Assembly: GCA_902168205.1 (NCBI GenBank)
Contig: CABHOK010000014.1
Location: 124,001-188,000, forward strand
Length of the DNA: 64,000 bases
Direction of reading: 5' to 3'
DNA from: an uncultured Chitinophaga sp.
GTDB lineage: Bacteria > Bacteroidota > Bacteroidia > Cytophagales > Cyclobacteriaceae
In this document: one piece after another, positions 47,164 to 60,617 of the stretch
Layout of the letters: every line of letters starts with the position of its first letter
Numbering within the stretch: position 1 is the stretch's first letter
Notes under the pieces: model-generated
The model's database searches: none
What the model was told of the DNA's origin: nothing
Seen by the model: only the letters and a program-made list of their open reading frames with translations
Made by a program: the position numbers and the translations under genes

Positions 47164-48168
47164 TTGCAATACAACACGAACGATATTGACGAACTGATCG
47201 GTAAGTACCTGGCCGGAGAAGCCTCTCCGGAAGAGAACGCCTTTATAGAGTCATGGCAGTTGCAAAACGATGCCAATCGGAAGTATATAGATCAGTTCAG
47301 AACAATTTTCGTAAAAGCTTCCGCTATAAAAGAGTGGCAGGAGTTTGATACCGATGCTGCCTGGAGTAAACTTCGTTCCAAACTTCATACACCGAAAGAA
47401 GCTCGCGAGATTCCGCTGCATACACCGAAGCGCTTTTTATACCTGCGCGTTGCTGCGAGTATAGTTATTATACTGGGTATAGGGTTCTTTGTATACCGGG
47501 GTATAAGTACATCACAGACAAAACCGATACAGGTAATTTCCGACAAGCAAACAAAAGGCGATACCCTTCCGGATGGCAGCGGTGTTTTTCTGAATAAGAA
47601 AACCAACCTTACCTACTCATACGACAAGAAGAAGAAAAGCCATGTTGTAAAACTGAAAGGCGAGGCATACTTCAACATCAATCACCAGGATAATAAAAAG
47701 TTTTTGGTAGACGCCGAAGGTGTTTTCATTCAGGATATAGGTACATCTTTCAATGTAACAGCCTACCCGGAGTCTAACACCGTAGAGGTGGTAGTAGTAG
47801 AAGGTGAAGTGCAATTCTATACCGAGAATGATTCCGGTATACATCTGAAGGCCGGTGGCAAAGGAGTTTACGACAAGAACACCAGGAAATTCTCTATTGA
47901 ACAACCGGAGAACAATGCACTGTCTTATAAAACAAAATTCTTCAGCTTTAGCAATGCTGACCTTGCTTCTGTAGTAGAAGCATTGAATGGTGTTTACGAC
48001 AGAAAAATTGTTATTTCTAAAAACCTGCAGAGCTGCCACCTCACGGTATCATTCAACAATGAAGATATACACGAGATCGCGCAGGTAATTGCCGAGACCT
48101 TAAATCTTACCGTAACAGAAACAGGAAAAGAAATTGTTTTGGAGGGTCAGGGTTGTGAAAACCAATAG
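47164..48168 (+). CDS. FecR family anti-sigma factor
   Basis: This 334-residue protein has a cytoplasmic N-terminal FecR domain (LIGKYLAGEASPEENAFIESW), one membrane helix at about 92-112, and a periplasmic domain with GDTLPDGSGVFLNKKTNLTY and VKLKGEAYFNI. A C-terminal STN-like or DUF4974 segment follows (DLASVVEALNGVYDRKIVI). It sequesters the upstream sigma factor and receives a signal from a partner's STN domain. The only usable start is TTG at 47164, since an in-frame stop lies at 47152-47154 and no later ATG keeps the domain. It overlaps the next gene by 14 bases. Confidence 0.93.
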   Translation: MQYNTNDIDELIGKYLAGEASPEENAFIESWQLQNDANRKYIDQFRTIFVKASAIKEWQEFDTDAAWSKLRSKLHTPKEAREIPLHTPKRFLYLRVAASIVIILGIGFFVYRGISTSQTKPIQVISDKQTKGDTLPDGSGVFLNKKTNLTYSYDKKKKSHVVKLKGEAYFNINHQDNKKFLVDAEGVFIQDIGTSFNVTAYPESNTVEVVVVEGEVQFYTENDSGIHLKAGGKGVYDKNTRKFSIEQPENNALSYKTKFFSFSNADLASVVEALNGVYDRKIVISKNLQSCHLTVSFNNEDIHEIAQVIAETLNLTVTETGKEIVLEGQGCENQ

Positions 48169-50050
48169 AACATTTTTACTGATCGCCTTTCTTACACTCT
48201 GGCAATTTACTTCTGCGAAGGCAGTTGAAGATCCGAAGACTCCCTTGTTGGAACGTGTTATCAGCGTGAACTTCCAGCAGGAGACATTGGCCACTGCGTT
48301 AAAAAAGATTGGTGAACTGGCAGGTTTCACATTCTCCTATAACTCAAATATACTGGATGCCAACCGCCTTATTTCCTATGAAGCTTCCAACAAAACGGTT
48401 CGCGAAGTATTAGACTATATCTTCAAAGGAAACATTCAGTATAAAGAGCGGAGAAAGCATATTATCCTGACAAAATCGGAGAATAGCTCCAAGGATACCA
48501 GGAAAGTAAGCGGGTATATTATTGATGAAGCAACAGGAGAACGTTTAAAAAACGTAAGTATATATGATCCTGTCTCACTATCGTCAGCTGTTACCGATGC
48601 TTACGGATTTTTCCAGATCGAAATACCCAGGCCATCGAATGAAGAAGTAAGTCTCGTTGTAAAAAAATTAAACTATGCCGATACGGTAGTAACAACAGGC
48701 GAGGGCAAAGGACTGCTAAACGTGCCTATAAAAATTGATAAAGAGAAGTTCAACGTGCTGGCCGATAGTGTCGGGAAGAAACTGAAACGATTCTGGCTCC
48801 TAACGAAGAACGCTACGGTACAAGCTATAAACATGATAAACATTGACGATACTCTGCATCGTCATTTTCAGTTTTCAGTGGTTCCCTTTATTGGCACCAA
48901 TCATAAGCTGAGCGGAAACATTATAAATGATTACTCGCTAAACCTGTTTGGAGGTTACTCGAAGGGAGTTGAAAAACTTGAGATTGGCGGATACTTTAAC
49001 GCAGTAGGTGGCGATGTACGCGGTGTACAAATTGCCGGCCTTGCCAACGGTGTGACTGGTGAAACAAACGGTGTGCAGATTGCCGGTCTCGTGAATGGTA
49101 ACTTAGGAAAGACTACGGGTGTACAAATTGCAGGTCTTCTCAACTTCAATGTTGATACTACCAACACCGTAGCATTGGCGGGGTTACTGAATTTTGGTTT
49201 GCGAGATTCGAAGGGCGCACGAGTCGGTGGCTTGGGTAATGCCACGATGGGAAAACAGGAAGGTCCGAGCGTAGCCGGACTTTTTAATTTCTCAACGCAT
49301 GATGCGAGCACCACACAGGTAGCAGGCTTACTTAATTTTACTGCAGGCTCTATGAACAATGGAGCACAGGTTGGCGGTCTGGTAAATTTTGCTGCGCACG
49401 ATGTGCAAGGTGCCCAGGTTTCTGGACTGCTGAATTTAGCGGGAGGAAAAGTAACGGGAACGCAAGTGGGTGTTGTTAACTATGCCACTAAAGTAAACGG
49501 ACTTCAACTCGGATTTCTGAATATATCCGATAGTATAAAAGGTGTACCGATTGGTTTCTTAACCTTTGCCAGCAGAGGCGGCTATCATAAAATTGAAATT
49601 TCTGCTGACGAGATCTTCTATACCAACGTAGCCTTCCGTACAGGCGTACGAAAATTCTATAACATATTTACCGCAGGTGCCAAGCCCGAAACATTTAACG
49701 ATTCTGAAACTATATGGACGTTTGGCTATGGATTGGGAACTGCTCCGCGACTTTCCAACACACTATATCTCAATGTAGATCTTACTGCGAACCAGGTGGT
49801 AAAAGGCAGTTGGACCGATGCTGTACACATGATTAACAAGTTATATCTTGGTGTTGATTACCAATTTGCACGCAAGATGTCTGTTACGGCAGGTGTTACG
49901 CTGAACGTCTACATCACAGACACAACGTATCAGAATTACCCCGATATATTTACCAACTACAAACCGCATTACTTTTCAGAGCACACCAGCAGCAACGATA
50001 TAAACAGTAAATGGTGGTGGGGAGCAAAAGTAGGGCTCCGGTTTTTATAG
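48155..50050 (+). CDS. STN-CarbopepD protein with about twelve GxQ(I/V)xGL repeats
   Basis: The start is taken at GTG 48155, giving a signal peptide MKTNRTFLLIAFLTLW; a TTG at 48134 would add seven residues. An STN domain (about 38-105) is followed by a CarbopepD beta-sandwich (about 110-190). A beta-rich part comes next, and then about twelve repeats of 14-17 residues at roughly 285-468, for example VRGVQIAGLANGVTGE and TNGVQIAGLVNGNLGK. The C-terminal 160 residues have alternating aromatic strands and end VGLRFL, like an outer-membrane barrel. No TonB box, plug domain or 22-strand barrel is present. It occupies the position of the TonB-dependent receptor in a Fec-type cassette. Its ligand is unknown. 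Confidence 0.85.
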   Translation: MKTNRTFLLIAFLTLWQFTSAKAVEDPKTPLLERVISVNFQQETLATALKKIGELAGFTFSYNSNILDANRLISYEASNKTVREVLDYIFKGNIQYKERRKHIILTKSENSSKDTRKVSGYIIDEATGERLKNVSIYDPVSLSSAVTDAYGFFQIEIPRPSNEEVSLVVKKLNYADTVVTTGEGKGLLNVPIKIDKEKFNVLADSVGKKLKRFWLLTKNATVQAINMINIDDTLHRHFQFSVVPFIGTNHKLSGNIINDYSLNLFGGYSKGVEKLEIGGYFNAVGGDVRGVQIAGLANGVTGETNGVQIAGLVNGNLGKTTGVQIAGLLNFNVDTTNTVALAGLLNFGLRDSKGARVGGLGNATMGKQEGPSVAGLFNFSTHDASTTQVAGLLNFTAGSMNNGAQVGGLVNFAAHDVQGAQVSGLLNLAGGKVTGTQVGVVNYATKVNGLQLGFLNISDSIKGVPIGFLTFASRGGYHKIEISADEIFYTNVAFRTGVRKFYNIFTAGAKPETFNDSETIWTFGYGLGTAPRLSNTLYLNVDLTANQVVKGSWTDAVHMINKLYLGVDYQFARKMSVTAGVTLNVYITDTTYQNYPDIFTNYKPHYFSEHTSSNDINSKWWWGAKVGLRFL

Positions 50051-55174: not shown

Positions 55175-55555
55175 ATGAAAGACAACAAGAAAATGAGTTA
55201 TCGTCCACACTCACCAGAATCCAACAACCCCATGGTTCGTGAACTGCTGGAGTGTGTTATTGCCTGTGAAACCTGTGCTACAGCATCGTTGCAGGAACGT
55301 GAAGTAAACATTATGACCCGCTGCATAGAACTGAGTCGTGAGTGTGCCGAGATCTGCGTGCAGACGGCCCGCTTTATGGAACGCGACTCTGAAATACTGC
55401 CGAGCTTTTTGCGCGTATGTGAAGAAGCCTGTCGCATGTGCGCTGAAGAATGCCGTAAACATAGCCATGAACATTGCCAACATTGTGCGGAAGTCTGCGA
55501 ACGCTGCGCAGAAGCCTGCCATGAATTTGACGGCAGCATAGAACTTAAATCCTAA
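55175..55555 (+). CDS. Cys-rich four-helix-bundle copper-binding protein (DUF326/Csp type)
   Basis: The start is taken at the ATG at 55175; the open frame upstream to 54962 lacks protein-like character. The 126-residue protein has 15 cysteines and six histidines in four helices, with motifs CVIACETCA, CIELSRECAEIC, CEEACRMCAEEC and CQHCAEVCERCAEAC. The CxxxC spacing along each helix points the thiols into the bundle core, as in copper-storage proteins. It has no signal peptide, so it would store Cu(I) in the cytosol. No copper exporter or regulator is next to it. Confidence 0.9.
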   Translation: MKDNKKMSYRPHSPESNNPMVRELLECVIACETCATASLQEREVNIMTRCIELSRECAEICVQTARFMERDSEILPSFLRVCEEACRMCAEECRKHSHEHCQHCAEVCERCAEACHEFDGSIELKS

Positions 55556-55633: not shown

Positions 55634-57064
55634 CTATTTCTTCTTCGGCAGCCTGAACCTCAGCCTCACCTTCACTTTGTCTTTTACCACTTCATCATCG
55701 CGTTTTGTCGCTGTCCACTTCGGACCAGCCTTAATGAGGCGTATTACTTCTTCATCACATCCATACCCTATACCTTTCAGCACTTTAAAGTCGGTAAGTT
55801 TACCGGAAGGCTCTACGGTAAATTGTATCGTTACCTTACCTTCTATTTCATTCTGAAGTGCAAGCTCCGGATATTTAATATTTTTTTCGAGGTATTGTTT
55901 ATAGGCTATTCTTCCTCCCTCTGGTGTAGCAAATTCGATGGTAGGTCTCTCCTTTTCAGTAATGTTTTCTGCACCATATCCCATCACTACCACTTCACTA
56001 AGCTGCGATACATCCTGCTCCAGTTCTACATCAACCTTATCAGTATTTGCATCAACCTCTTTACTCTGCATACCGATGAAAGAAAAAACGAGATCGGTAT
56101 CTTTTGTATTCTCTGTAGTCAATTCATAGTTTCCCTGCATATCCGTTACGGTTCCTACATTACTGTCTTTTACCATTACGTTTACACCGGGTAATCCTAC
56201 ACCTTCCTCAGCAGATCGTACCTGTCCTCGAATTATACGCGTGCCGGATATATAGCCGTTCATAGCCGGCTCTAACTTTATCGCATTACCTTGCACAGTT
56301 GTGTCGGCTTGTGATGAACTGTATCTGAAACCGGCATCCTCTTTCTTCAATTCTAAACTTGCCTCACGTTTTCGTATAGACGTAGCAGCTACCGGTTCCC
56401 TCTCTTCCAACGCTTTGCTAATTTCCTTGTCATCAAATTTATCAGCTATTGCTTCGTCGGATACTTGTTCGTCAGCTGGCATCGATGCCATTTGCTCTAC
56501 TTGTTCCGTTATAACAGCTTCCTCCACGGGCTGTGGTTTTATCACCGGAGACTTCGCTGTATATTCCTGTATACCGAGAGTAACTTTCTCAGGTATCTTT
56601 TCCTCACTTTCACCTGCCGCTGATTGGTCAAGTGATTTCGGTTGCTCCGCCGGTATATCTTCATTCTCCGAAGGTATATTTTGTTCTGGTTTCGTCTCTT
56701 CGGTTGTCTTCTCAGCAGGAGCAACGGTTTCTTTATTCACCGCCAGGTCATTCGAAGAATTGTTTTGCAACAAACTATAGATAACAAATCCCGATACAGC
56801 CAGTAGTGCAAGTCCCGCAGCCATACGCATCGGCCATGCCCACATCGGTATAACCTTTTCCCGCGGTGATTGTCTACGTTCCCTAAGCGATGCCTGAAGC
56901 GCGTGAAGATCAGCCTCCAGTTCATCGTTCGGTATACCTCCGGCACCTTCCAATGCTTCTGCCAGGAACGGGTCGCTCAATGCCTTCCGCTCCAGCGCGT
57001 GCATCTCGGCCGGTGTCAGTTCACCTTTCAGGTATCGTTCAATATCGTTTTGCAAATCAGCCAT
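55634..57064 (-). CDS. Anti-sigma-like / CarbopepD / TonB C-terminal fusion protein
   Basis: This 476-residue protein spans the membrane once (about residues 79-99). Residues 1-70 are cytoplasmic and resemble the N-terminal part of anti-sigma factors (DIERYLKGELTPAEMHALER), without zinc ligands. After the helix comes a long Pro/Glu/Lys-rich stretch of about 130 residues, typical of TonB spacers. A CarbopepD beta-sandwich (about 274-355) is followed by a TonB-box-like SEVVVMGYG (356-364) and a TonB C-terminal domain (about 388-476, with YLEKNIKYPELALQNEIEGKVTI). The start overlaps the upstream sigma factor gene by eight bases. A TonB box and a TonB domain in one chain is very unusual. Confidence 0.88.
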   Translation of the reverse strand: MADLQNDIERYLKGELTPAEMHALERKALSDPFLAEALEGAGGIPNDELEADLHALQASLRERRQSPREKVIPMWAWPMRMAAGLALLAVSGFVIYSLLQNNSSNDLAVNKETVAPAEKTTEETKPEQNIPSENEDIPAEQPKSLDQSAAGESEEKIPEKVTLGIQEYTAKSPVIKPQPVEEAVITEQVEQMASMPADEQVSDEAIADKFDDKEISKALEEREPVAATSIRKREASLELKKEDAGFRYSSSQADTTVQGNAIKLEPAMNGYISGTRIIRGQVRSAEEGVGLPGVNVMVKDSNVGTVTDMQGNYELTTENTKDTDLVFSFIGMQSKEVDANTDKVDVELEQDVSQLSEVVVMGYGAENITEKERPTIEFATPEGGRIAYKQYLEKNIKYPELALQNEIEGKVTIQFTVEPSGKLTDFKVLKGIGYGCDEEVIRLIKAGPKWTATKRDDEVVKDKVKVRLRFRLPKKK

Positions 57065-57620
57065 GTTGATCCATGCAGATCTTCAAATTGCGTTTACCAT
57101 TCTGTATATAGCTCTTCACTTTGTTATCGTCATAGCCCGTAAGCTGTACAATTTCTTTATAGCACTTCTGCTGTAAGTAAAACAACTGCACACACTGTTT
57201 CTGTTCAACCACCAGCGTATCCATGCACTTTTCCAATTTACTAAGATTTGTCTCCATTTCAGGCTCATCATCCAGATGAAAAACGGTGTCGTTTTCCATA
57301 AAGGAAGGCGATATTTCTTCGAATTTTTTTCCTTTGCCTGCCCGGAGCTGCATCAGGCAGTGATTCCGGGTCGTAACGTAAAGCCAGCTTTTAAAGTGCG
57401 CTACCTCGTGTTCCTTCAACGTAACCACAAGCTTTTCAAATATCTGCATCACAGCATCGCGACTTTCTTCTCTGTCTTTCAGGTACTTCAGGCACACTCC
57501 GTATACCAGCGACATATAGCGGTTGTATAGTTCTCCCAGCACAGCAAGCTCACCATAACGCCTGTATTCCAGCAGGAGGTCGGCATCGGTTAATGACTTA
57601 TGGACTTTGAAAGAAGACAT
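57057..57620 (-). CDS. ECF RNA polymerase sigma factor
   Basis: This 187-residue sigma factor has region 2 (about 20-85; LGELYNRYMSLVYGVCLKYL, DAVMQIFEKLVV, FKSWLYVTTRNHCL) and region 4 (about 125-180; CVQLFYLQQKCYKEIVQLTGYDDNKVKSYIQNGKRNL). An acidic linker separates the two regions. It overlaps the anti-sigma/TonB fusion gene by eight bases and diverges from the CarbopepD-vWA gene across 90 bases, so it may control both directions. Confidence 0.93.
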   Translation of the reverse strand: MSSFKVHKSLTDADLLLEYRRYGELAVLGELYNRYMSLVYGVCLKYLKDREESRDAVMQIFEKLVVTLKEHEVAHFKSWLYVTTRNHCLMQLRAGKGKKFEEISPSFMENDTVFHLDDEPEMETNLSKLEKCMDTLVVEQKQCVQLFYLQQKCYKEIVQLTGYDDNKVKSYIQNGKRNLKICMDQHG

Positions 57621-57644: not shown

Positions 57645-57665
57645 ATTCCAACTGGCTTATGGAAT
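57645..57665. promoter_or_regulatory. Inverted repeat in the divergent sigma/vWA promoter region
   Basis: ATTCCA (57645-57650) and TGGAAT (57660-57665) form an inverted repeat with a nine-base spacer, centred in the 90-bp divergent gap. Each arm contains GGAAT reading outwards, similar to ECF -35 elements (GGAAC-like). A paired autoregulated promoter is possible; this is inference. Confidence 0.35.
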
Positions 57666-57710
57666 CTTTTTACAGACTGCATCTCACAGGCAAAACAAAA
57701 TATACGGGTT

Positions 57711-59579
57711 ATGAAAAAATATATCTGGATAGTTGCTGCGCTGATAATATTCAGTACAGGATTTGTATCACCTGAGTCGCGCGTCATCACCGGCAAAGTA
57801 ACGTACGCCAAAGATGGAAGTCCGTTACCCGGAGTAACGGTTATACTGAAAGGAACTACTACGGCAGCCGTAACCGATCATGCCGGTGTCTATAAAATTA
57901 CAGTACCGGCCAAAGGTGGCACGCTGGTGTTTTCATTTATAGGATTAAAATCCAAAGAAGTAAAGATCGGAACGACCGGTACCCTGAACGTTGCATTGGA
58001 AGATGATGCCAAAGAACTGGAGGAAATTGTTGTTATGGATTATGCAACCAAACAAGAGGCAAAGTCTTTTGCTTATTCAACAGCAGCCGAACCAATAGCC
58101 GCGCCATCTGTTGCCTATGACCAGATCGGATATGCTGACCTTGAGCTGCAGGAAAAATGGAACACCGAAGAGTACGATGCTATACACGAGAATATATTTC
58201 ACGATGCTATACGTAATCCACTTTCAACTTTTTCTATCGATGTTGATGCAGCATCCTATAGCAACATCCGCAGGTTCATTAACAATGGCAATCGTCCTCC
58301 GAAAGATGCCGTGCGCATTGAAGAGATGGTAAACTATTTTGATTACGACTATGAACAACCGAAGCGTGACGATCCTTTTGCTGTAGTAACGGAAATTTCA
58401 TCTGCTCCGTGGAATGCAAAACATAAACTGGTACATATAGGCTTACAGGGAAAGAAGATTCCCACCGAAAAATTACCGGCTTCCAACCTTGTGTTTCTCA
58501 TTGATGTATCAGGCTCTATGGACGAACCGAATAAACTTCCCTTGTTAAAGTCTTCTTTCAAAATGTTAGTGGAAGAACTTCGCCCGCAAGATCATGTAGC
58601 GATAGTAGTATATGCCGGTGCTGCAGGACTCGTCCTCGAACCAACATCAGGTGCAGAGAAAAAGAAAATAATTGAGGCGCTTGATCGTCTGGAGGCAGGT
58701 GGATCAACGGCAGGTGGTGCCGGTATAAATTTAGCTTATGCAACTGCACGCGAGCACTTCAAAAAAGATGGCAACAACCGTGTTATACTCGCTACTGATG
58801 GCGACTTCAACATTGGCGAATCGAGCAACGCTTCCATGGAACGTTTGATCGAAGCGAAACGCCAGGAAGGAATTTTCTTAACCGTATTAGGCTATGGCAT
58901 GGGTAACTATAAAGATTCCAAAATGGAAACACTGGCCGATAAAGGCAATGGTAACTATGCCTATATAGACAACATTACCGAAGCCCGTAAAGTATTGGTA
59001 AATGAATTTGGCGGAACACTCTTTACGATTGCTAAAGATGTAAAACTGCAGATCGAGTTTAATCCTGCACATGTAAAAGCATATCGCCTCATCGGGTATG
59101 AAAACCGAATGCTGAAGAGTGAAGACTTCAACAACGATAAAAAAGATGCGGGCGAACTGGGTTCCGGACATACAGTCACTGCGTTGTATGAGATTATACC
59201 GGTAGGTGTTGAAAGTGAGTTCTTCAAGATTGATGAGTTGAAATACCAGACTACGAAGATCGATCCGGCAGCTAAAAAGTCTGATGAATTGATGACGATC
59301 AAGCTGCGCTATAAGAATCCGAATGAAGACGTTAGCAAACTCATTGTACATCCTTTAAAAGATAACAACATAGCACTTGCTAAAACATCCGATAACTTTC
59401 GCTGGTCAGCATCGGTGGCAGCCTTCGGTATGTTGCTGAGAGAATCCGAGTATAGCAAGAATTATACTTATGATGATGTAGTACAACTTGCCCAAGGTGC
59501 CCGCAGCACAGATAAGGAAGGATACCGCATCGAGTTCATCAATATGGTTAAATCATTTGGAATAGTGGCGAGCCGTTAA
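57711..59579 (+). CDS. CarbopepD-vWA (YfbK-like) envelope protein
   Basis: The start is at the ATG at 57711 (MKKYIWIVAALIIFSTGF, a signal peptide); an upstream in-frame ATG overlapping the divergent sigma gene is rejected. The 622-residue protein has a CarbopepD domain (about 24-103) followed by EEIVVMDYA, a TonB-box-like motif. A YfbK N-terminal region comes next (NPLSTFSIDVDAASYSNIRRF), then a vWA domain with the MIDAS motif DVSGS at 265-269 and ATDGDFNIG, and a C-terminal DUF3520-like region. It is probably surface- or periplasm-located and binds a partner through the metal site. Confidence 0.9.
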   Translation: MKKYIWIVAALIIFSTGFVSPESRVITGKVTYAKDGSPLPGVTVILKGTTTAAVTDHAGVYKITVPAKGGTLVFSFIGLKSKEVKIGTTGTLNVALEDDAKELEEIVVMDYATKQEAKSFAYSTAAEPIAAPSVAYDQIGYADLELQEKWNTEEYDAIHENIFHDAIRNPLSTFSIDVDAASYSNIRRFINNGNRPPKDAVRIEEMVNYFDYDYEQPKRDDPFAVVTEISSAPWNAKHKLVHIGLQGKKIPTEKLPASNLVFLIDVSGSMDEPNKLPLLKSSFKMLVEELRPQDHVAIVVYAGAAGLVLEPTSGAEKKKIIEALDRLEAGGSTAGGAGINLAYATAREHFKKDGNNRVILATDGDFNIGESSNASMERLIEAKRQEGIFLTVLGYGMGNYKDSKMETLADKGNGNYAYIDNITEARKVLVNEFGGTLFTIAKDVKLQIEFNPAHVKAYRLIGYENRMLKSEDFNNDKKDAGELGSGHTVTALYEIIPVGVESEFFKIDELKYQTTKIDPAAKKSDELMTIKLRYKNPNEDVSKLIVHPLKDNNIALAKTSDNFRWSASVAAFGMLLRESEYSKNYTYDDVVQLAQGARSTDKEGYRIEFINMVKSFGIVASR

Positions 59580-59747: not shown

Positions 59748-60341
59748 ATGGAATTAGAAGAGAACAGTCCAAAACAAAACTATACAGAAGCTGAAAAGCA
59801 AACTATCTTTCATGGAGAGTTTATGCCCCACATTAACTCCATGTATAACTTTGCTTACAGGCTCACGCTGGATGCCGATGATGCCAAAGACTTATTGCAG
59901 GATACTTATCTGAAAGCCTATCGCTTTATTGAATCTTTTCAGAAAGGAACTAATGCTAAAGCATGGCTGTTTCGAATTTTAAAAAACAGCTTTATTAATG
60001 ATTATCGAAAGAAGAGCAAAGAGCCTTCGAAAGTAGATTATCAGGAAGTAGAGAGCTATTACAATTCGGAGGAGGTTGACCGGCAAATAACACCCGATCT
60101 GCGTGTGGAGGCGCTTAAAGATATGATCGGTGATGAGATATCAAATGCCCTCAACGCTCTTGATGTTGATTTCAGAACAGTGATAATTTTATGCGACCTG
60201 GAAGGTTTTAAATATGAAGAGATGGCGAAGATTCTGGATATACCTATCGGAACAGTTCGTAGCCGACTTCACCGGGCACGCAACCTGCTGAAAGAAAAAC
60301 TTAGTGAGTACGCTAAACAAATGGGTTATAAAACCGCATAG
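59748..60341 (+). CDS. ECF RNA polymerase sigma factor (RpoE/SigR-like)
   Basis: This 197-residue sigma factor has region 2 (MYNFAYRLTLDADDAKDLLQDTYLKAYRFIESFQ, AWLFRILKNSFINDYRKKSKEP) and region 4 (ALDVDFRTVIILCDLEGFKYEEMAKILDIPIGTVRSRLHRARNLL). The two quotes are segment names, not full domains. It is closer to the SigR/RpoE type than the two FecI-like factors in the window. It is followed three bases later by a zinc anti-sigma gene. Confidence 0.94.
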   Translation: MELEENSPKQNYTEAEKQTIFHGEFMPHINSMYNFAYRLTLDADDAKDLLQDTYLKAYRFIESFQKGTNAKAWLFRILKNSFINDYRKKSKEPSKVDYQEVESYYNSEEVDRQITPDLRVEALKDMIGDEISNALNALDVDFRTVIILCDLEGFKYEEMAKILDIPIGTVRSRLHRARNLLKEKLSEYAKQMGYKTA

Positions 60342-60344
60342 ATC

Positions 60345-60617
60345 ATGAGCAACCCCGATCCGAGCAAGATGAAGCAAGATTGTCCAGAGAAGAACGAATG
60401 CCTCAAAATGCTTCAACTCATTTTAGATGGTGAAGCAACTTCCGAACAAAAAGATCATTTCCTGAAAAATCATTTGGAGGAGTGCATGCCCTGCTACAAG
60501 AATTATCATTTGGAAGTAGCCATACGCCAACTCCTGAAAACGAAATGCTGCCAGGATGCTCCACAGGAATTAGTGGATGACATCAAAACCAAAGTGATTA
60601 ATAATCTGGCGCGTTGA
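60345..60617 (+). CDS. Zinc-binding (ZAS/zf-HC2) anti-sigma factor
   Basis: This 90-residue soluble protein carries the H-x3-C-x2-C zinc motif in HLEECMPC, with upstream cysteines (DCPEKNEC) and a KCC pair near the end. This resembles RsrA-type redox-sensitive anti-sigma factors: oxidation of the zinc thiols would release the upstream sigma factor. It has no membrane helix. Its TGA stop overlaps the gmk ATG by one base, so gmk translation is probably coupled. Confidence 0.85.

Follow-up and report, generated by a model that had tools for sequence, protein, structure and literature searches.

Layout of the Locus

The window described here is a stretch of 64,000 nucleotides from an uncultured Chitinophaga sp. 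(GenBank assembly GCA_902168205.1, contig CABHOK010000014.1, positions 124,001 to 188,000 of the forward strand). It contains a gene which joins an anti-sigma-like cytoplasmic domain, a membrane helix, a SusC-type domain with a Ton-box tail and a TonB domain in one protein, and which is preceded by a gene for an extracytoplasmic function (ECF) sigma factor (Table 1). Checking of open reading frames (ORFs) and translation of the window confirmed that the 476 amino acids ORF is real. The end of the sigma ORF and the start of the fusion ORF share eight bases (57057–57064), the very overlap that had been noticed in a first-pass annotation made from the letters alone. The combination of a SusC-type (CarbopepD) domain, a Ton-box tail and a TonB domain in a single chain, which the same annotation had proposed, was borne out by Pfam, NCBIfam and Foldseek.

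Table 1: Features of the fusion gene, its sigma factor gene and the divergent VWA gene, in window positions.
Feature	Position	Strand	Basis or remark
Anti-sigma / SusC N-terminal extension / Ton box / TonB C-terminal fusion	55634–57064	-	476 aa
Residues 1–70, putative class I-type anti-sigma domain without zinc ligands	56855–57064	-	Profile matches of relatives, model
Residues 74–100, membrane helix	56765–56845	-	Alignment, model
Residues 101–273, Pro/Glu-rich linker	56246–56764	-	Alignment, model
Residues 274–352, CarbopepD_reg_2 / SusC N-terminal extension	56009–56245	-	Pfam, NCBIfam, Foldseek
Residues 355–364, SusC-type Ton-box tail LSEVVVMGYG	55973–56002	-	Alignment, tail control
Residues 379–472, AxPxGG motif and TonB C-terminal domain	55649–55930	-	Pfam, alignment, model
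ECF sigma factor, 187 aa	57057–57620	-	ORF, Pfam, NCBIfam
Promoter-like motif TATGGAA-N14-TCATC in sigma ORF, facing the anti-sigma gene	57275–57300	-	About 210 bases upstream of anti-sigma start
Promoter-like motif TATGGAAT-N13-GCATC upstream of VWA gene	57658–57683	+	
Divergent VWA / YfbK_C protein, 622 aa, signal-peptide-like start (by eye)	57711–59579	+	ORF, Pfam
CarbopepD_reg_2 of VWA protein, residues 26–108	57786–58034	+	Pfam
Degenerate Ton-box tail LEEIVVMDYA of VWA protein, residues 103–112	58017–58046	+	

In Pfam the CarbopepD_reg_2 domain was found at residues 278–360 (6.9e-19) and TonB_C at residues 395–472 (2.6e-15). The linker in front of them is little conserved in the alignment, and its predicted local distance difference test score in the AlphaFold model is mostly below 50. 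A plug and beta-barrel of the SusC/RagA kind were not found by Pfam or in the model of this 476-residue protein, the TonB domain standing in their place, and the FecR family gave no Pfam match in the protein at expectation values (E) up to 1.

Occurrence of the Fusion

For counting domains, profiles built from the family itself were used. The N-terminal anti-sigma domain was detected in 77 of 148 genomes of the same taxonomic family and in 65 of 296 genomes of the phylum, the profile used for the phylum also reaching shorter anti-sigma-like proteins; among the named carriers are Ohtaekwangia, Chryseolinea, Pseudochryseolinea, Flavisolibacter, and Flavihumibacter. Loci for comparison were 50 of the 85 places in the family, mostly the best-scoring ones, together with all 43 named ones. 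From these 93, removal of duplicates by sigma factor sequence left 82, five of which are truncated or split (the gene extends over two frames in L029 and L080), so that 77 full-length copies remained.

A sigma factor gene lies upstream on the same strand in all 82 loci, and in the phylum an ECF sigma gene adjoins the domain in all of the 30 best-scoring loci. Every full-length copy has a TonB_C domain. The SusC-type domain is present in 70 of them, the other seven having a TonB domain without it. The divergent VWA/YfbK gene, each time encoding a SusC-type domain, is within reach in 54 of the 77, many of the loci being short; it is found in 30 of the 43 named loci, most of which have flanks of 4.5 kb, and is thus a frequent neighbour and not an obligatory one. 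Judged by this conservation, the anti-sigma–TonB fusion is a conserved system and not unique to the window. The first-pass annotation had reckoned that a common, already described domain order with another role would speak against its proposal. The order is indeed common and conserved, and no account of it with another role was found in the open-licence literature searched.

The Cytoplasmic Domain

Residues 1–100 of the window copy matched no Pfam family above cut-off, and the NCBIfam anti-sigma model reached only an E of 0.014 with the whole protein and of 0.28 with residues 1–101. Profile tests were therefore read over 28 family members including the window copy, with E up to 10 allowed. The NCBIfam anti-sigma model matched 14 of them, the window copy included (best 6.3e-7), zf-HC2 of Pfam weakly matched ten, the window copy not among them (best 1.6e-4), and the ChrR and RsrA models matched two each. 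It is because these relatives match anti-sigma families that the window copy is assigned to the anti-sigma factors. The zinc motif HxxxCxxC is retained in two of the 82 loci (L045 and L057), which suggests that the anti-sigma domain of the family may once have held a zinc site which has since been lost elsewhere. The commonest N-terminal pattern in the family alignment is Y-x2-G-x-[LM]-[ST]-x4-H-x2-E-[KR]-x2-L-x-D-P-F-x-A-[ED]-A-x-E-G.

AlphaFold placed helices at residues 7–12, 18–29, 32–41, and 46–65, followed by the membrane helix (predicted template modelling score 0.34–0.35). Class I anti-sigma domains are described in PMC7406223 as three helices plus a helix 4, helix 1 meeting sigma4 and helix 4 meeting sigma2, and the predicted helix order of residues 1–70 agrees with the layout given there. 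When the N-terminal domain was compared with solved structures by Foldseek, RsiW stood at the top of the list as a weak match (E 3.4); comparison of the N-terminal profile with the sequences of solved structures yielded four matches at E up to 10, with no anti-sigma factor among them. Weak matches of the domain profile in the own genome include frames of 338–367 amino acids directly upstream of SusC-type genes, a placement which we take to be that of FecR-like genes. That residues 1–70 form an anti-sigma region paired with the overlapping ECF sigma gene, as had first been supposed, is well supported by the matches of the relatives, by the predicted helix layout and by the invariably adjoining sigma gene.

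The Periplasmic Part

Residues 278–366 match positions 3–89 of the SusC/RagA model of NCBIfam (4.4e-22), below the whole-protein cut-off of the model as expected for a partial match, and this segment therefore looks like the N-terminal extension of a SusC protein with its Ton box. In structure, Foldseek matched the same residues to BT3090 and BT1763 (9hfj, 6ytc), in each case to the N-terminal extension domain. In BT1763 the Ton box VDEVVV comes after the N-terminal extension domain, as reported in PMC7782687, so that LSEVVVMGYG in the window protein occupies the place of a SusC Ton box. To this extent the earlier designation of VVVMGYG as a TonB box holds, but the motif itself is less telling than it appeared. 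Of 126 matches of the domain in the own genome, 70 were taken and 68 tails could be read, and LxEVVV-like cores occurred in 50 of these 68 tails of CarbopepD_reg_2-type domains. The argument from the box is limited accordingly, the EVVV core being a common tail of the domain. The full EVVVxGYG form, which the window protein has, was found in 16 of the 68 tails, all of them within frames of 1051–1966 amino acids.

LxEVVV-like cores also occur in proteins of 194–399 amino acids from the same genome (L194, L199, and L202), which are too short for receptors, and of the 70 copies of the fusion with a SusC-type domain 16 have lost the box core or have it in changed form. A less probable reading is that the SusC-type domain, tail included, acts only as a folded spacer or for docking, and that the EVVV tail no longer serves TonB. 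The conservation of the tail argues against this: in the alignment of 51 sequences L355, E357, and V358–V360 stand at 3.2–4.0 bits as compared to less than 1.5 in columns 365–378, and G362, Y363, and G364 are retained in 32, 35, and 26 of about 48 sequences.

Another proposal, made in the first-pass annotation, is that the TonB domain binds the box, either within one chain or between neighbouring copies, resulting in auto-inhibition or in force being coupled to sigma factor release. Box and TonB domain do share one chain, the core is retained in 54 of the 70 copies and the xGY form in 41, and deletion or mutation of the Ton box of BT1763 caused growth defects similar to those from loss of SusD, according to PMC7782687. 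Self-binding nevertheless appears distinctly unlikely, as seven full-length copies have the TonB domain without any SusC-type domain, the EVVV core is shared with so many other tails of this domain, and the box is disordered in the AlphaFold model (residues 358–367), a disorder which by itself says nothing on binding.

Co-variation between the boxes of the fusion and of the VWA protein was also considered and is not used as evidence. In the 50 loci with the domain in either protein of the pair alike, rho was 0.14 (p 0.35); with an absent domain counted as no box it was 0.32 in 54 loci (p 0.017), 38 of these having both boxes, 7 neither, and 5 and 4 being mixed (Fisher p 0.001). Along a sigma factor tree, independent contrasts gave r 0.15 (p 0.07), which is no more than suggestive.

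The TonB domain of the model resembles TonB C-terminal domains in Foldseek, and results for the whole model are dominated by SusC-type and TonB domains. This fold, and the presence of the domain in every full-length copy, would also suit a protein which is chiefly an energy-coupled TonB driven by ExbB/ExbD, with the anti-sigma part secondary. Such a role is improbable, since it is the cytoplasmic domain which defines the family, always with a sigma gene beside it, and since the membrane helix has no conserved histidine. In TonB of E. coli a histidine of the membrane helix is the residue that matters. In the alignment of the 51 sequences histidine is absent from the three commonest residues of every column of the helix, and columns 82–83 are Ala-Ala in 50 of them.

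A Promoter-Like Motif within the Sigma Factor Gene

A promoter-like motif was first spotted by eye in the intergenic regions between sigma and VWA genes and then counted in those regions. Upstream of the VWA gene T[AG]TG[GT]AA-N14-NCATC is found in 55 of 57 loci, in 42 of them in the strict form T[AG]TGGAA...GCATC. In 200 shuffles it occurred 0.065 times on average and never more than twice, and in the opposite direction there were 2.

The motif is also present inside the sigma coding sequence, where it faces the anti-sigma gene in 66 of the 82 loci (58 strict); 12.06 were expected when synonymous codons were shuffled within each gene. In 64 loci it lies 195–250 bases before the sigma stop, 215 being the commonest distance (34 loci). 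The window site reads TCATC where GCATC is usual. At its usual place the motif has one and the same reading frame in all 64 cases and encodes M/V-E-x5-H.

Codon choice at this place was read after aligning all 82 sigma factors as proteins; the columns were picked from the site of the window copy, and kinship was left in. The codon preceding Met/Val ends in T in all 82 although at least eight residues are encoded there, and where it encodes leucine it is CTT in 18 of 18 cases, the background being 271 of 1882. Valine is encoded by GTG (16/16), glutamate by GAA (64/64), glutamine by CAA (15/15), and histidine by CAT (81/81). The codon after the histidine starts with C in all 82 while encoding leucine, proline, histidine or glutamine. 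Codon counts at motif-matched sites, including counts of 20 of 20, were discarded: they are circular, GAA and CATC being prescribed, or almost prescribed, by the pattern. Despite the constant frame and the encoded M/V-E-x5-H, it is very improbable that the motif is a protein-level feature of the sigma linker and no promoter, as codon choice is far from background in the protein alignment and the residues after the histidine are alike only in the C which starts their codons.

The 30 best-scoring loci of the phylum, less four which belong to the own family, left 26 for a test outside the family with the slightly wider pattern T[AG]TG[GTC]AA. The internal motif was present in 14 of the 17 loci with a TonB domain and in none of the nine without (p 7e-5). 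The simplest reading of the internal motif is that of a sigma-dependent promoter for the anti-sigma gene, and its orientation towards that gene would imply negative feedback.

Further Motif Sites and Candidate Target Genes

A search for TATGGAAT-N13-GCATC in 12 relatives gave 41 sites, as compared to one when the pattern was reversed. The 41 include sigma-gene sites, and also sites inside other frames. With a still stricter motif 21 sites were found versus none for the reversed pattern in 60 genomes of the family, and it was present in 10 of 30 genomes with the system and in 2 of 30 without. The stricter form is therefore specific, yet it misses most systems. For MuiA/DUF4139 genes, 30 of 50 MuiA matches being scored, the upstream motif was found in 18 of the 22 genomes that have the system and in 1 of the 8 that lack it (p 0.001), shuffles giving 0.17%; the single system-less genome is 81% complete.

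In the own genome 28 sites were found with one mismatch allowed, compared to five for the reversed motif. Twenty-three of these lie inside other reading frames and one has no gene start nearby. The remaining four precede the VWA gene, a gene for a 244 amino acids protein with a SusC-type domain, a gene for a DUF4139 protein, and a gene for a 965 amino acids protein with a SusC-type domain, the latter two sites with one mismatch each.

The MuiA proteins of some relatives contain LSEVVVMGYG or LSEVVVTGYG (L247 and L263), and in L247 this box closes a SusC-type domain. In MuiA of L273, L245, and L260 the part read has no EVVVxGYG box, and the upstream motif is shared with L247 and L263. Two small motif-preceded proteins with a SusC-type domain (L270:226-957 and L246:1553-2020) have similar C-terminal ends (WWGKVKGIF and IWHKMKSIF), and one of them starts with an NPCHEQW...CSSC N-terminus. 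A protein of about 440 amino acids lies under the motif in L249 and L310, in L249 with weak squalene-cyclase and alpha-macroglobulin TED matches.

Other sites were set aside. The motif in a 430 amino acids frame of four genomes (L213, L241, L248, and L264) was regarded as a chance occurrence kept by descent. Single sites ahead of genes for TonB (L243) and ExbD (L266) come from two genomes of one genus with differing surroundings and are not counted as regulon members, and the remaining single sites are likewise not claimed.

Proposed Mechanism

Taken as a whole, the protein is likely to be a membrane-anchored anti-sigma factor of class I type with a TonB sensor, which controls a sigma-driven envelope regulon and is subject to anti-sigma feedback. 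The cytoplasmic four-helix domain would hold the ECF sigma factor encoded by the overlapping gene, and the long disordered tether would carry the SusC-type domain, the Ton-box tail and the TonB domain through the periplasm toward the outer membrane. There the TonB domain would act as the sensor: its clients in the outer membrane or periplasm would be engaged through their Ton boxes or through related sites, and altered engagement would release the sigma factor. The free sigma factor would use TATGGAA-N14-GCATC promoters in front of the genes for the VWA/YfbK protein, the MuiA/DUF4139 protein and other envelope proteins, some of which have a SusC-type domain. The promoter buried in its own coding sequence would provide extra anti-sigma factor and shut off the response. 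Anti-sigma homology, domain order, pairing of the two genes, the motif with its placement, and part of the regulon are supported by comparison of sequences; that the sigma factor is bound, that the feedback operates in cells and what the signal is, we infer.

A more specific and rather speculative version would have the TonB domain compete for the Ton boxes of SusC-type domains, among them that of its own chain and those of the proteins induced by the system (the VWA protein and some MuiA proteins). The supply of boxes would then set sigma factor release, and the buried anti-sigma promoter would close the loop.

Other Features of the Window

At 59748–60617 (plus strand), roughly 2 kb away from the sigma gene of the fusion, lies another ECF sigma gene, followed by a 90 amino acids protein with a zf-HC2 match just under cut-off. 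The protein encoded at 48134–50050 (plus strand) has an STN domain, surface repeats of the LA_2272 type and a match to CarbopepD_reg_2 slightly below cut-off, and no TonB plug or barrel family of Pfam or NCBIfam matched it. A cysteine-rich protein with three DUF326 repeats is encoded at 55178–55555 (plus strand), convergent to the fusion gene.

Comparison with Known Systems

The open-licence literature searched yielded no account of an anti-sigma factor that carries a TonB domain, although the ECF classification could still list one. Bacteroidota rely heavily on SusC-type TonB-dependent uptake. With its proposed promoter and targets, a widespread anti-sigma factor assembled from parts of SusC and TonB makes envelope sensing testable by reporter strains. 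Only 6% of the ECF sigma factors of Bacteroidetes have a class I anti-sigma domain nearby, by the figure given in PMC7406223.

With the class I anti-sigma factors of the zf-HC2, RsrA, ChrR and RsiW type the fusion shares the four-helix cytoplasmic domain, the sigma gene directly upstream, the membrane helix and, in the two relatives mentioned, the zinc motif. It differs from them in its periplasmic part, which consists of a SusC N-terminal domain, a Ton-box tail and a TonB C-terminal domain. FecR and PupR are single-pass anti-sigma factors of TonB-dependent receptors. The fusion resembles them as a single-pass anti-sigma factor tied to TonB-dependent systems, and the profile of its cytoplasmic domain weakly matches the FecR-like frames; in contrast to them it has no FecR family match in Pfam and carries a TonB domain of its own. 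The Dma factors of Bacteroides, as presented in PMC13088901, have an anti-sigma domain, a membrane helix, a long disordered tether and an adjacent ECF sigma gene in common with it, but end in a beta-barrel where the fusion ends in its TonB domain. From SusC/RagA proteins (PMC7782687, for BT1763) it has the PF13715 domain followed by an EVVV-type box, whereas plug and barrel are absent and the domain is joined to an anti-sigma factor.

If the proposed promoter is real, it would be a clean example of regulatory DNA which constrains a coding region, preserved by codon choice through changes of the encoded residues. The nearest parallel is sigH-rshA of Corynebacterium glutamicum, where, as described in PMC3489674, a sigma-dependent promoter within the sigma gene drives the anti-sigma gene alone. 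That promoter was demonstrated experimentally, while the one proposed here, in another phylum and with another motif, is deduced from its conservation.
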